Shown here: piece by piece, positions 7,362 to 19,827 of the stretch | Layout of the letters: the number at the start of each line of letters is the position of its first letter | Position numbering within the stretch: the stretch's first letter is position 1 | DNA from: a virus | DNA: 23,884 nt | Virus record (IMG/VR): IMGVR_UViG_3300043464_000915 | Span: 1-23,884 of that record | Direction: 5' to 3' (one strand) | Translations under genes and position numbers: made by a program | Notes under the pieces: model-generated | The model's input: the letters and a program-made list of their open reading frames with translations, nothing else | Databases searched by the model: none | What the model was told of the DNA's origin: nothing

Positions 7362-7724
7362 GTGAAGCAAAAGATTACTTTCAGCCCTGAAGAGCTAAAA
7401 AGCTTCAAGGCGATGATCCGCGCTCTCGCGCAATTCAAGCAACTGTCAGAACGGTTTCCTGTTAGCTACATGGAGACCCTTCTACAGGTTGCAGTGAAGC
7501 AGGGTCTTGGCACCACTGAGTATGCTGAACGTGTCAGCATAGGCAAAGACAGCACCTCGCGCACATTGGGTGTCTTAGGTGAACGCCCTCGCGCGAGAGA
7601 CGAAAAGGTCTACGGGTTTCTTGAGCAGTGCGATGACCCTATCGACTCGCGCAAGACCCACTATTTCGTGACATCTAAAGGAGCGCAGCTTCTCAAAAAA
7701 ATACATCAGGAACTTGAAGCATGA
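7362..7724 (+). CDS. MarR-like winged-helix transcriptional regulator
   Basis: 120 residues from a GTG at 7362 behind a GGAG site. The centre fits a winged helix-turn-helix: MIRALAQFKQLSERFPVSYM, then METLLQVAVKQGLGTTEYAERV, recognition helix SIGKDSTSRTLGVLG, a wing around DDPIDSRKTHYFVTSKG, and a terminal helix AQLLKKIHQELEA. The order and the D-x-R-K wing resemble MarR-type regulators, though it is shorter at the N-terminus. It overlaps the integrase start (ATGA), so the two are probably produced together. It is the best candidate in this window for the protein that reads the TTGCCCAT palindrome or controls integrase and RNA polymerase expression; that link is inference. Confidence 0.65.
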   Translation: MKQKITFSPEELKSFKAMIRALAQFKQLSERFPVSYMETLLQVAVKQGLGTTEYAERVSIGKDSTSRTLGVLGERPRARDEKVYGFLEQCDDPIDSRKTHYFVTSKGAQLLKKIHQELEA

Positions 7725-8899
7725 GCATCTATGTAGAGAAGCGCAACGGTAGACCAACCGGCAAATGGAAGGTCGAGGTGACTGTCCAAGGTCAACGCCA
7801 TGTCGCGCGGACCAACAGTATGGAGGAAGCCAAACGCATCGAACAAGAGTTGAAGCTCACCGGCCAAAAACCGGACTCTAGTCGTGTCCAAATATATACC
7901 CTTGGTCATCTAGATGATGATGCTTGTCGCCGTCTGTGGGACGGCCAGAAGGATGGTGCGTATGCCTACCAACGCTGGAGGCGGTGTCTCGCGCTCCTCG
8001 GTCCACAAACGCCTATCACCGAGGTGCGTGTCGCGCGCCTAGAGCACTTGGCGCAGCGCCTTCGCGCTCAGGGTCTGTCTAACAAGACCATCAACAGGCA
8101 CCTCGCGTGTGTATCTAAGGCGCTCAGGTGGGCTTGGCGTAACGACATCCTGCTCTCTATGCCCTACATCCCCCGCCTCCATGAGGACGAGGGTCGCATC
8201 GCGTATCTAAGGAACTCAGAGATACCTGTGTTCCTAGACTACCTATATGCGAACGAGAGGCCATCAGTGGCCCTGTGTCTGGAGGTGCTGCTGGTCACTG
8301 GTATGCGGGCCGGGGAGCTAATGTCCCTACTCCCTCACAACGTAGAGATTGAGGAGGACGACGCCCTAATCGTGCTTGACGACTCAAAGTCAGGCGAAGG
8401 ACGCACCATACCCATCCCTCGCGAGCTAGGGGTCAAACTGTGCAAAGTGGTCAATCTGGGGCTACCGGATTACGACCTGTTGCTTCGCGCATGCCATAGG
8501 GCCAGCGAGGAACTAGGGACCAAGGATACGGTGACGCCGCACATTTTGAGGCACACCTGTGCGACCGTCCTGACAGCCTCGGGCGTTCCGACTCTTGTGG
8601 TTGCCGATCTGCTTGGCCATAGGAATCTAGAGACAACCCGTAAGTATGCTCACCCGACTCGCGATGCGCTTAGGGAGGCCACAAGGTCGATGGTAATGCG
8701 TGGTAATGCTGGTGGTAATCTTCGGGGAACTAGCGGCGAAACTAAAGTAAAATCAGGAGAACCAGCGTCTTCTCTGCTTTTACAGTCCGCCCCCTTTGCC
8801 GCTCGGGACATTCCCCCACATGGGGCGGAACCAGTAGAGAAGCCAAAAGCTTCCGTCAAGCGGCCTAAAGCTGACAAACCGAGAACAAAGGGCAGTTAG
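7721..8899 (+). CDS. int: Tyrosine recombinase / phage integrase
   Basis: 392 residues from ATG 7721. An N-terminal arm-binding-like region (GKWKVEVTVQGQRHVARTNS) leads to a core-binding domain near residues 75-150 (YQRWRRCLALLG, LSNKTINRHLACVSKALRWA). The catalytic domain keeps every key residue: Arg196 in TGMRAGEL, Lys223 in DSKSGEG, His274 and Arg277 in HILRH, His300 in LLGHRN and the nucleophile Tyr309 in TRKYAH. About 80 further residues form a Pro/Lys-rich tail that most integrases lack. The enzyme should catalyse site-specific integration and, with a helper, excision. Placement just upstream of the RNA polymerase matches integrase-bearing T7-like podophages. No tRNA-derived attachment site is visible nearby. 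Confidence 0.93.
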   Translation: MSIYVEKRNGRPTGKWKVEVTVQGQRHVARTNSMEEAKRIEQELKLTGQKPDSSRVQIYTLGHLDDDACRRLWDGQKDGAYAYQRWRRCLALLGPQTPITEVRVARLEHLAQRLRAQGLSNKTINRHLACVSKALRWAWRNDILLSMPYIPRLHEDEGRIAYLRNSEIPVFLDYLYANERPSVALCLEVLLVTGMRAGELMSLLPHNVEIEEDDALIVLDDSKSGEGRTIPIPRELGVKLCKVVNLGLPDYDLLLRACHRASEELGTKDTVTPHILRHTCATVLTASGVPTLVVADLLGHRNLETTRKYAHPTRDALREATRSMVMRGNAGGNLRGTSGETKVKSGEPASSLLLQSAPFAARDIPPHGAEPVEKPKASVKRPKADKPRTKGS

Positions 8900-17401: not shown

Positions 17402-17648
17402 CGCAAGTATTGAGGCGCTGAACTCAATAGACACCACTAAACTCGAAGAACTTGTCTTTAGCATCATCGAGTCGTTCGGAAATGGGGGATGTATTTCAGA
17501 CGATGTAAGAGCACATAAGCCGGGACTTGCTTACTCTTCAATCACCGCGAGATATTCGTCTCTACTTAGAAAAGGGTTGATTACCCGAGGACCAGACAAA
17601 AGGAAGGGTATAAGCGGTAGAAGTCAGGGAGTAATGAGAGCAAAATGA
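17391..17648 (+). CDS. Small winged helix-turn-helix protein
   Basis: 85 residues from ATG 17391, with GAGGAG upstream; a TTG at 17376 overlaps that ribosome site and is not preferred. The sequence LEELVFSIIESFGNGGCISDDVRAHKPGLAYSSITARYSSLLRKGLITRGPDKRKGISGRSQGVMRAK reads as helix, helix, recognition helix (YSSITARYSSLLRKGLI) and wing (RGPDKRKGISGRSQ). Phage wHTH proteins with a comparable SGR-x-Q wing are common and probably regulate transcription or replication. It ends in an ATGA overlap with thyX, so it may set thyX expression or simply ride in the operon. Target unknown. Confidence 0.65.
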   Translation: MTSSASIEALNSIDTTKLEELVFSIIESFGNGGCISDDVRAHKPGLAYSSITARYSSLLRKGLITRGPDKRKGISGRSQGVMRAK

Positions 17649-18301
17649 ATGTTGAACTAATAGACTACATGGGTTCAGATAACTCAGTAGTAGATGCAGC
17701 AAGAGTATCATTCAGTAAACACCACGACAAATACAGCGACGAAGATAACGCCAGACTAATCTCCTACCTGGCCTATAATAACCACTGGTCACCCTTCGCT
17801 CACACTTCGATCAGCCTCCGCATCAAAGCTCCAATCTTCATCGCTCGGCAGCTTGTGAAACATCAGGTTGGCTTTGCGTGGAATGAGGTCTCTCGCCGCT
17901 ACGTTGATGATGAACCTGAGTTCTTCATTCCCGACTACTGGAGGAAGCGCGCAGAGAACATTAAGCAAGGGTCCACTAACGACCAAGTGTATCTCTCGCC
18001 TATGCTTGAGATGGAGACAGATAATGGCTGTGTGCATACTCCCGTTGAACTGTATATGGCAGCGAAGGATTGCTACGAGGCGCTACTGAAGATTGGCGTT
18101 TGCCCTGAGCAAGCTCGGATGGTTCTGCCGCAGGCTATGTATACCGAGTGGATTTGGACCGGCTCTCTGTTCGCTTGGAGCCGTATGTATAACCTCAGAA
18201 CCGACAGTCACACACAACTCGAAACGCAGCAGGTAGCTTTCCTTATTGGTGAAGCTATTGAGCCTCTGTTTCCGAAGTCATGGAAAGCACTGACTAAATG
18301 A
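17645..18301 (+). CDS. thyX: Flavin-dependent thymidylate synthase ThyX
   Basis: 218 residues from ATG 17645, overlapping the previous stop. ThyX converts dUMP to dTMP with FAD, NADPH and methylenetetrahydrofolate. Recognisable blocks are DAARVSF near residue 20, WSPFAHTSISLRIKAPIFIARQLVKHQ, then WNEVSRRYVDDEPEF, and a C-terminal TEWIWTGSLFAWSRMYNLRTDSHTQLETQQVA. The signature is a variant: Lys72-His73-Gln74 followed by eight residues to Ser83, instead of the canonical RHR-X7-S. Phage-type ThyX proteins commonly carry this KHQ form, so it is probably active. It supplies dTMP together with the ribonucleotide reductase and MazG-like protein downstream. Its stop overlaps the start of a lipoprotein gene. 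Confidence 0.95.
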   Translation: MNVELIDYMGSDNSVVDAARVSFSKHHDKYSDEDNARLISYLAYNNHWSPFAHTSISLRIKAPIFIARQLVKHQVGFAWNEVSRRYVDDEPEFFIPDYWRKRAENIKQGSTNDQVYLSPMLEMETDNGCVHTPVELYMAAKDCYEALLKIGVCPEQARMVLPQAMYTEWIWTGSLFAWSRMYNLRTDSHTQLETQQVAFLIGEAIEPLFPKSWKALTK

Positions 18302-18513
18302 CACGCAGCGACTTCATGCTGTTCTTGGTGTTCTTCTCGCTCATGATGCTGATTACAGGCTGTAGCACAGCCTATGACGCTATTGGGCAGATCGACACCA
18401 ACGGCACCTACTACAAGTCAGACAAGAAGCAGCCTGCATACTGTCAGGTAACCAAGGGCAACATCACTTACTTCGTTCCCTGCTCCACCCTCAAACATGA
18501 CGAGAACATATAA
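18298..18513 (+). CDS. Small phage lipoprotein
   Basis: 71 residues from ATG 18298 (ATGA overlap with thyX). The N-terminus MTRSDFMLFLVFFSLMMLIT is a signal sequence ending in the lipobox LITGC, so Cys22 should be lipidated and the mature 50-residue protein held in the envelope. The mature part has two more Cys (YCQVTKG and FVPCSTL) that may form a disulphide. Phage lipoproteins act in superinfection exclusion or as outer spanins. The position among replication genes, away from any visible holin or lysin, argues mildly for exclusion. Family not recognised. Confidence 0.7.
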   Translation: MTRSDFMLFLVFFSLMMLITGCSTAYDAIGQIDTNGTYYKSDKKQPAYCQVTKGNITYFVPCSTLKHDENI

Positions 18514-18530
18514 GAAGGAACTTCGCCCCT

Positions 18531-18785
18531 ATGATTAAACTTGAGTCAGGATGGGCCATCATTGGTCATTCAGCCAATGAAACCACTGAACATCTCTACA
18601 ACAAGCTCCGCAAGCATGACATCAAGCCAAAAGAGTTCATGCTCTACGGTGACATCAGAACCTTTGTGCGAGCCAATGAACTACCTGAAGACGAAGCCAT
18701 AGCGTTTCACCATGGTCTGTATGTCGGAACAATCGACTACATTGATCCTTACATCAACGAATTTAAAAGGACTGACGGCGCATGA
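18531..18785 (+). CDS. Small protein, unknown
   Basis: 84 residues from ATG 18531 behind AAGAAGGAA. The sequence MIKLESGWAIIGHSANETTE and then HLYNKLRKHDIKPKEFMLYGDIRTFVRANELPEDEAIAFHHGLYVGTIDYIDPY is an alpha/beta mix with no membrane segment, Cys cluster or nucleotide-binding loop. I do not recognise a family. It overlaps the next gene by four bases (ATGA), so it belongs to the same transcription and translation unit. Confidence 0.6.
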   Translation: MIKLESGWAIIGHSANETTEHLYNKLRKHDIKPKEFMLYGDIRTFVRANELPEDEAIAFHHGLYVGTIDYIDPYINEFKRTDGA

Positions 18786-19075
18786 AGCCAACCCTAGTAG
18801 ATAACTGTGAGCACTACTCTTACCAGACGCACAACTGCACCAAGTGTGGCCGTGGGTTACCTGATGTCTGTGCTGAATTTGAAGAAATGAGAAACGCAGC
18901 GAAAGCCTTTCATGAGCAGAATGAAGTTCTACGAAATAAAGATAGCAGTAGGACTGTTGGCTCTGGTGATGATGTTACTGACGATACTGTGGCCAGTGTG
19001 GATACCCCTGCTGTTCCCAAGCCCCGTGGTAGACAGAGAGCAGGAACTGCGTCCCCAAAGCGAGTGGCACAGTGA
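18782..19075 (+). CDS. Small Cys-rich protein with low-complexity tail
   Basis: 97 residues from ATG 18782. The N-terminal 30 residues contain Cys9, Cys19, Cys22 and Cys30 plus two His in DNCEHYSYQTHNCTKCGRGL, enough ligands for a zinc site. A helix FEEMRNAAKAFHEQNEVLRN follows. After residue 55 the sequence turns into a Thr/Val/Asp-rich, then Pro/Arg-rich disordered tail. That tail is exactly the part overlapped by a second frame at 18912-19094, which encodes a convincing membrane helix, so the odd composition may come from dual coding. The stop overlaps the GTG of the exonuclease gene (GTGA), which supports this frame being read to its end. Confidence 0.6.
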   Translation: MKPTLVDNCEHYSYQTHNCTKCGRGLPDVCAEFEEMRNAAKAFHEQNEVLRNKDSSRTVGSGDDVTDDTVASVDTPAVPKPRGRQRAGTASPKRVAQ

Positions 19076-19094
19076 AGAGGACTTTACTGATTGA
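18912..19094 (+). CDS. Possible overlapping gene for a 60-residue membrane protein
   Basis: A frame nested in the Cys-rich gene and running into the exonuclease start, in the third phase relative to both. From ATG 18912 it encodes a short basic head (MSRMKFYEIK), a long hydrophobic span IAVGLLALVMMLLTILWPVW with IPLLF, and an acidic tail ending SEEDFTD. Positive-inside head, single span and charged tail look like a real small membrane protein. There is no strong ribosome site (only AAAGCC...GAGCAG nearby), so expression could be by re-initiation. It may be a chance frame; the well-ordered topology is the main argument for it. Confidence 0.4.
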   Translation: MSRMKFYEIKIAVGLLALVMMLLTILWPVWIPLLFPSPVVDREQELRPQSEWHSEEDFTD

Positions 19095-19827
19095 TGGCGA
19101 CGAGTTCTGCCATGTCTCAAGCGCAGCAGTTGAATACGAAGCGCACTGGGATGACCAAAACATCATTCTTGCATCAAATATAGAGGAGGCATGGGATGCC
19201 TTTCATGGACGCCTTCAAGGTGTTCTGGATGCTATTGAGGGCGAAAAGACTTTACGGTTCGCTTTCACTGGACCGGAAAACTTCCGCAGAACACTATACC
19301 ATGATTACAAAAAGAAACGTGGTGGACGTAAGCCGCTTTGCTTCTCCGCACTCAAGCAGCGGATACACGAGAATTTCGATTGTCATACGGAACCGACCCT
19401 AGAAGCTGATGACCTCATGGGTATCTGGGCGACTTCAGGCAGCTTCGAGAATCCAGTGATTGTTTCCCAAGACAAGGACATGCTGACTATCCCAACCACT
19501 CTCTGGCGTGAGGGTAGTCTCGTAGTCACTGGTCGTGGTGACGCTGATTACTACTGGATGAAACAAACGCTCACCGGGGATACCTCAGATGGCTATCCGG
19601 GGTGTCCGGGGTATGGCCCTGTGACCGCTGAGAAGCTCTTGGATAACTTCACGGCACTTGATGGTGGGTTCCTGCTTGATGAGGCGTGGAAGGCTGTCGT
19701 TCAGCAATACATCAAGAAGGGTCAGGCTGAAGAGGATGCTTTGGTTCAGGCGCAGTTGGCGAGGATTCTTAGGAGTGGCGATTGGGACGCAGAGAAACGA
19801 GAGGTGAACCTGTGGACACCGACCTAA
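19072..19827 (+). CDS. 5'-3' exonuclease (T7 gp6-like, FEN family)
   Basis: 251 residues from a GTG at 19072 overlapping the previous stop. Metal-binding acidic motifs of the PIN/FEN nuclease fold are present: LIDGDEF at residues 5-11, TEPTLEADDLMG near 110, VSQDKDML near 130, and TGDTSDGYPGCPGYGPVTAEKLL near 170, which includes the helix-hairpin-helix. T7 gp6 has similar size and is essential for removing RNA primers and degrading host DNA. Here it would act with endonuclease I, with nucleotides passing to the RNR/ThyX/MazG set. A coiled-coil gene begins inside its last 16 bases. Confidence 0.92.
   Translation: MKRTLLIDGDEFCHVSSAAVEYEAHWDDQNIILASNIEEAWDAFHGRLQGVLDAIEGEKTLRFAFTGPENFRRTLYHDYKKKRGGRKPLCFSALKQRIHENFDCHTEPTLEADDLMGIWATSGSFENPVIVSQDKDMLTIPTTLWREGSLVVTGRGDADYYWMKQTLTGDTSDGYPGCPGYGPVTAEKLLDNFTALDGGFLLDEAWKAVVQQYIKKGQAEEDALVQAQLARILRSGDWDAEKREVNLWTPT

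Follow-up and report, generated by a model that had tools for sequence, protein, structure and literature searches.

Genes of the locus and the embedded frame

The window (the whole stretch of DNA that was analysed, a virus record of 23.9 kb) carries a T7-like replication module that encodes a single-subunit RNA polymerase, with an FAD-dependent thymidylate synthase, an exonuclease, and a DUF3310 protein as further members, and includes a gene that, by a reading of its sequence, appears to encode a DNA polymerase. The 392-aa ORF upstream of the RNA polymerase gene resembles a tyrosine recombinase in its motifs and may encode one. The candidate frame lies in a tightly packed run (Table 1), in which successive genes from 17645 to 19827 overlap by four bases, with the exception of a 17-base gap after the lipoprotein-like ORF. 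Most related loci have a similar lipoprotein-like ORF in this position.

Table 1. Coordinates of the features discussed, as positions in the window.
Feature	Positions	Strand	Remarks
392-aa ORF	7721–8899	+	upstream of the RNA polymerase gene
Control hydrophobic +1 frame, 132 aa	15131–15529	+	inside the putative DNA polymerase gene; maximum KD19 2.33
Thymidylate synthase	17645–18301		in the tightly packed run that holds the candidate
Lipoprotein-like ORF	18298–18513	+	hydrophobic head, LITGC; starts within the thymidylate synthase stop
84-aa ORF	18531–18785		between the lipoprotein-like and 97-aa ORFs
Host ORF, 97 aa	18782–19075	+	probable zinc-ribbon-like head, low-complexity tail; no family match
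Candidate embedded ORF, 60 aa	18912–19094	+	ATG; +1 relative to 18782–19075; sequence MSRMKFYEIKIAVGLLALVMMLLTILWPVWIPLLFPSPVVDREQELRPQSEWHSEEDFTD
Predicted membrane span, residues 11–35	18942–19016	+	maximum KD19 2.54; overlapped main codons strongly T-enriched at third position
21-base in-frame indel	~19033–19053	+	missing from L003/L008/L040 and L004/L009/L032; both frames kept
5'-3' exonuclease (T7-like), 251 aa	19072–19827	+	GTG start; phrog_107, PF02739, PF01367

The 97-aa protein has relatives on 12 IMG/VR contigs (five close and seven more distant) and had no profile match in PHROGs, Pfam, or NCBIfam. Four cysteines (C9, C19, C22, and C30) are invariant in its head across 11 sequences, an arrangement that suggests a zinc ribbon. 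The predicted model of the protein, used solely to judge whether the tail is disordered, was of low confidence (mean pLDDT, 61; near 50 from residue 51 onward), and the tail, over which the candidate lies, looks disordered. The main frame beneath the candidate is rich in S, T, D, G, and V, in keeping with its description as low-complexity in an earlier sequence-only reading. That reading had also given the candidate a basic head, a clean hydrophobic span, and an acidic tail, and had it enter the exonuclease gene, and both descriptions were borne out: residues 1–10 form the basic head and residues ~11–35 the hydrophobic span, followed by the acidic tail, and the 3' end falls 23 bases inside the exonuclease gene. 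The GTGA at 19072–19075, which supplies both the stop of the 97-aa ORF and the GTG start of the exonuclease, is common to all three ORFs. As in an overprinted gene, an open frame is nested in the second frame of a gene that has homologs.

Signals for initiation of the second frame were sought and not found. ATG 18912 has no Shine-Dalgarno sequence (duplex energy, −0.5, matched or bettered by 80% of the window's ATGs), and among the other starts compared about half are at −5 or stronger; the alternative ATG 18921 reached −1.9. Coupling of ATG 18912 to an upstream stop was also absent, and this ATG is lost in one of the more distant lineages (L034). Known overprinted lysis genes can have weak starts, so the absent ribosome binding site is a point against the frame, though not a decisive one. 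In profile searches with the 60-aa peptide, the best PHROGs match was to a family of unknown function (E = 0.052) and neither Pfam nor NCBIfam gave a match at 0.1, such that the peptide was not recognised as a holin, a spanin, or any other family of these databases. A tblastn search of 50,697 phage records returned one match (E = 4), and a description of the candidate frame was found neither there nor in a literature search, which led to papers on overprinting in bacteria and to a review of overlapping genes in viruses (PMC8227390).

Retention in relatives and chance expectation

Relatives were sought with protein, alignment, and DNA-pattern queries of viral contigs, an alignment query of genome contigs, and the tblastn search of phage records. 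The DNA-pattern search proved too loose, returning at least 120 stretches, among which a local tblastn identified two relatives, L091, on the contig of L004 (already in the set), and L167, which by identities and coordinates is probably the contig of L002. The genome-contig query returned one weak, unrelated-looking match (L043, 27%). The candidate was open and hydrophobic in all four close contigs that span it (peptide identity, 91–100%), and in a fifth, which ends after 16 codons, the frame was open up to that point. Two of the four spanning contigs carry the 21-base deletion, and the residue changes within the span in this clade were A>V, V>L, L>A, and I>L. Stops in close relatives, named in the sequence-only reading as what would refute the frame, were accordingly not encountered. 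Among relatives this close, retention without stops has a probability of 0.55–0.57 in the absence of selection, and the lack of stops was rejected as evidence in its own right.

A comparable ORF is missing from all seven of the more distant homologs. In the nearest outgroup (L033) the +1 frame is open yet hydrophilic, and in L035 and L036 it is interrupted by stops. A hydrophobic +1 stretch of 25–30 codons occurs in L034, L037, and L038, including L034, where ACG stands in place of the candidate ATG, and L039 has a very hydrophobic +1 frame of 26 codons. Among the three lineages with a hydrophobic +1 frame, the peptide differs in both length and sequence. The 60-aa protein is thus restricted to one close clade, but a hydrophobic +1 frame at that place is not.

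Chance expectation was calculated with the main protein held fixed and its synonymous codons redrawn, by permutation or by draws from codon usage (20,000 each). A +1 ORF of at least 60 aa arose in 3,066 permutations and 7,514 usage draws (15–38%), and in 1–4.5% of draws such an ORF had a KD19 of at least 2.0, while the observed hydrophobicity (KD19, 2.54) was reached in 96 permutations and 5 usage draws (0.025–0.5%). Across 23 genes of the window, 0.017–0.023 sense alternative ORFs with at least 50 aa and a KD19 of at least 2.5 were expected and one was seen; 1.7–2.3% of codon-shuffled windows held any such ORF. Given these redraw frequencies and the 23-gene expectation, the length of the candidate is ordinary and its hydrophobicity is not. 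ORF length was discarded as stand-alone evidence for a gene, and the view that so well ordered a frame would be an unusual coincidence holds for hydrophobicity and fails for length.

Even for hydrophobicity, that view needs a control, since the window contains a second hydrophobic +1 frame, inside the putative DNA polymerase gene (Table 1). This frame is open and hydrophobic in four of eight relatives, with five to six stops in the other four, and it passes the protein-conservation test described below as well as the candidate does. No explanation beyond chance is offered for it.

Codon choice and substitutions in the overlapped tail

Over the predicted span, 17 of 27 main codons end in T, compared to 8.1 expected, and the +1 frame is hydrophobic because the T of these codons falls at its second position; third-position T of the host gene is displaced into a hydrophobic span, as in overprinting of the phiX174 E-in-D type. 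For codons 44–77 of the tail, 20 T-ending codons were observed against 9.5 expected from the phage's own usage (p = 5e-5), whereas the head of the same gene has 11 against 11.7 expected. An excess at p = 0.01 was reached in none of 78 own-gene control segments, and none of 49 disorder-like stretches in 24 other ORFs of the window reached 0.05. The tail p value for the window is inflated, as the frame was chosen for its hydrophobicity; the other lineages were not so chosen. Among these, the tail excess was seen in L039 (20 against 10.8 expected, p = 7e-4), L038 (p = 0.012), L037 (p = 0.025), and L034 (p = 0.038), each relative to its own usage. The tails of L033, L035, and L036, where the +1 frames are not hydrophobic, have no excess (p = 0.30–0.46), nor do the heads in any lineage (p = 0.17–0.77). 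Fisher's method, applied by hand to the values of four further lineages (L033, ~0.46; L037/L038, ~0.02; L035/L036, ~0.35; L039, ~0.0007), gave a combined p near 0.001.

Permutation of synonymous codons within the gene reached the observed hydrophobicity in 1–3% of cases for four sequences of the window clade and in 7% for L039, compared to 51–63% for L037/L038 and 75% for L034. By this measure the signal in L034, L037, and L038 is much weaker, a caveat to the recurrence of the T-ending excess.

The window and L030 differ at 0 of 733 positions in the exonuclease and at 6 of 130 just upstream, and are only ~76% identical in the gene at 18531; as the contigs are mosaic, rates of change were not compared between regions. 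Within the overlap, 12 sites vary in the close clade, and their distribution over positions 1/2/3 of the main codons is 4/3/5, compared to 9/6/61 in flanking single-frame coding sequence (Fisher p = 0.009); the 130 bases of the host gene that precede the overlap have 1/0/6, from which the overlap does not differ significantly (p = 0.15). In the window clade there is no enrichment at the +1 wobble position (4 of 12). In the tail of the second clade, the counts (L037–L038, 6/3/4; L038–L034, 7/2/1) lean to main position 1, which is the +1 wobble position, and position 1 equalled or exceeded position 3 in only 4 of 185 control segments. With a relaxed tail the counts should be 1:1:1, and with +1 coding position 1 should be in excess; the summed counts (17/8/10) lean to +1 coding and are still compatible with a relaxed tail (hand chi-square ~3.8, 2 df).

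By randomisation, +1 changes were conservative given the main frame, with a nominal p of 0.005 in the close clade and of 0.0035, 0.019, and 0.00025 in the second clade, all from an overly permissive test: among 53 open +1 segments taken from ordinary genes, 6 reach 0.004, and the two hydrophobic ones, which come from the DNA polymerase gene, reach 0.002. With ordinary +1 segments, chiefly the hydrophobic DNA polymerase ones, passing too often, the test was rejected as sole evidence and, in view of this miscalibration, is given little weight. The synonymous-site evidence, a check proposed in the sequence-only reading, supports extra constraint, through a T-ending excess confined to the tail and recurring in other lineages, together with a lost third-position bias. 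Purifying selection may thus act on the second frame: the T-ending excess and the codon-position counts lean that way, and the conservation test, which the DNA polymerase control passes equally, adds no calibrated support.

Competing explanations and parallels

The reading adopted here, with a probability of about 0.5, is that overprinting has recently given rise here to a fast-changing gene for a small single-pass membrane peptide. The candidate would lie across the disordered tail of a small, zinc-ribbon-like protein whose gene directly precedes that of the exonuclease, and this tail would tolerate nearly any D/S/T/G/V-rich sequence, such that selection on the +1 frame could be satisfied through T-ending main codons that place Leu, Val, Ile, Met, or Phe in the +1 frame. 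Ribosomes would initiate weakly inside the host gene, at ATG 18912 or 18921, and the product would insert into the membrane with its basic N terminus inside and its acidic C terminus outside, as expected from the positive-inside rule. If the peptide acts, it would most likely be made at a low level and work on the membrane, in the manner of phiX174 E or a holin. The overprinted membrane protein put forward from the sequence has so far gained from the retention of the frame in the close clade and from the synonymous-site signal, and has lost ground through the missing ribosome binding site and the lack of a comparable ORF in the distant homologs; support from related phages is real but not decisive.

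An overprinted membrane peptide appears about as likely as a by-product of the host gene, and the frame is best treated as a candidate and not as an established gene. It could well be that the +1 frame is no gene at all and that a disordered D/S/T/G/V-rich tail happens to use T-ending codons, through local composition or slippage-made low complexity, which the code turns into Leu, Val, Ile, Met, or Phe one frame on, with the frame open owing to the closeness of the relatives. The frequency of equally long ORFs in codon draws, the ease with which within-gene permutation matches the hydrophobicity of L037/L038 and L034 and, far less often, that of L039 and the window clade, the even odds of retention without stops, the behaviour of the DNA polymerase frame, and the absent ribosome binding site all fit such an origin, and a relaxed disordered tail would likewise lose its third-position bias. 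It accounts less readily for a T-ending excess that is limited to the tail, is unseen in other disorder-like stretches, and recurs in separate lineages, or for second-clade counts that lean to the +1 wobble position. Improbable by comparison is a transframe product, in which some of the ribosomes translating the 97-aa gene would shift by +1 around codon 43–44 and join the zinc-ribbon head to a membrane anchor. Such a product would need no separate start codon and so would suit L034, which lacks the ATG and has the hydrophobic +1 stretch, and the window has TTT CAT GAG at that place, where a UUU-to-UUC slip is conceivable; the other lineages have TAT GAC or TAC GAC there and no slip site in common.

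Beyond the candidate gene in the window, it is conceivable, if rather doubtful, that the disordered tail is a recurrent overprinting site in this T7-like phage group, with at least three lineages keeping the +1 frame hydrophobic by synonymous choice and making E-like peptides that stay hydrophobic while changing quickly in sequence and length. If the overprinting is real, the locus would present an overprinted membrane gene caught young and absent from outgroups, would record at the codon level how a first frame pays for a second, and would raise the testable question of whether disordered tails with T-ending codons are nurseries for membrane peptides. If it is not, T-rich codons in a low-complexity tail easily imitate a membrane protein, and protein-conservation tests on +1 frames need calibration.

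The closest parallel is phiX174 gene E within gene D, which, like the candidate, encodes a small membrane peptide in the other frame of a longer gene. A review of viral overlapping genes (PMC8227390) describes how the high third-position T content of gene D falls at the second position of E and yields a leucine-rich transmembrane domain, the same displacement as seen here; this provides the best parallel and also explains how hydrophobic +1 frames can come about passively. Gene E has a known lysis role, whereas translation and function of the candidate are putative, and the candidate also crosses into the next gene and lies in a neighbourhood of DNA metabolism. De novo overlapping viral proteins in the +1 frame are reported, in the same review, to be enriched in hydrophobic residues and to have fewer acidic ones (PMC8227390); the hydrophobic span of the candidate fits this description and its acidic C-terminal tail differs. 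Those overlaps are curated, whereas the overlap described here rests on sequence statistics.

Small single-span ORFs of 45–55 aa occur directly 3' of the exonuclease in four related loci (L035:3250–3387, L036:3250–3387, L038:1657–1794, and L039:3211–3378), unlike in the window, where the exonuclease is not directly followed by one. No sequence likeness to the candidate was evident by eye, and, unlike the candidate, these ORFs come after the exonuclease and overlap its end by tens of bases; they share with the candidate a single hydrophobic span and the same neighbourhood.
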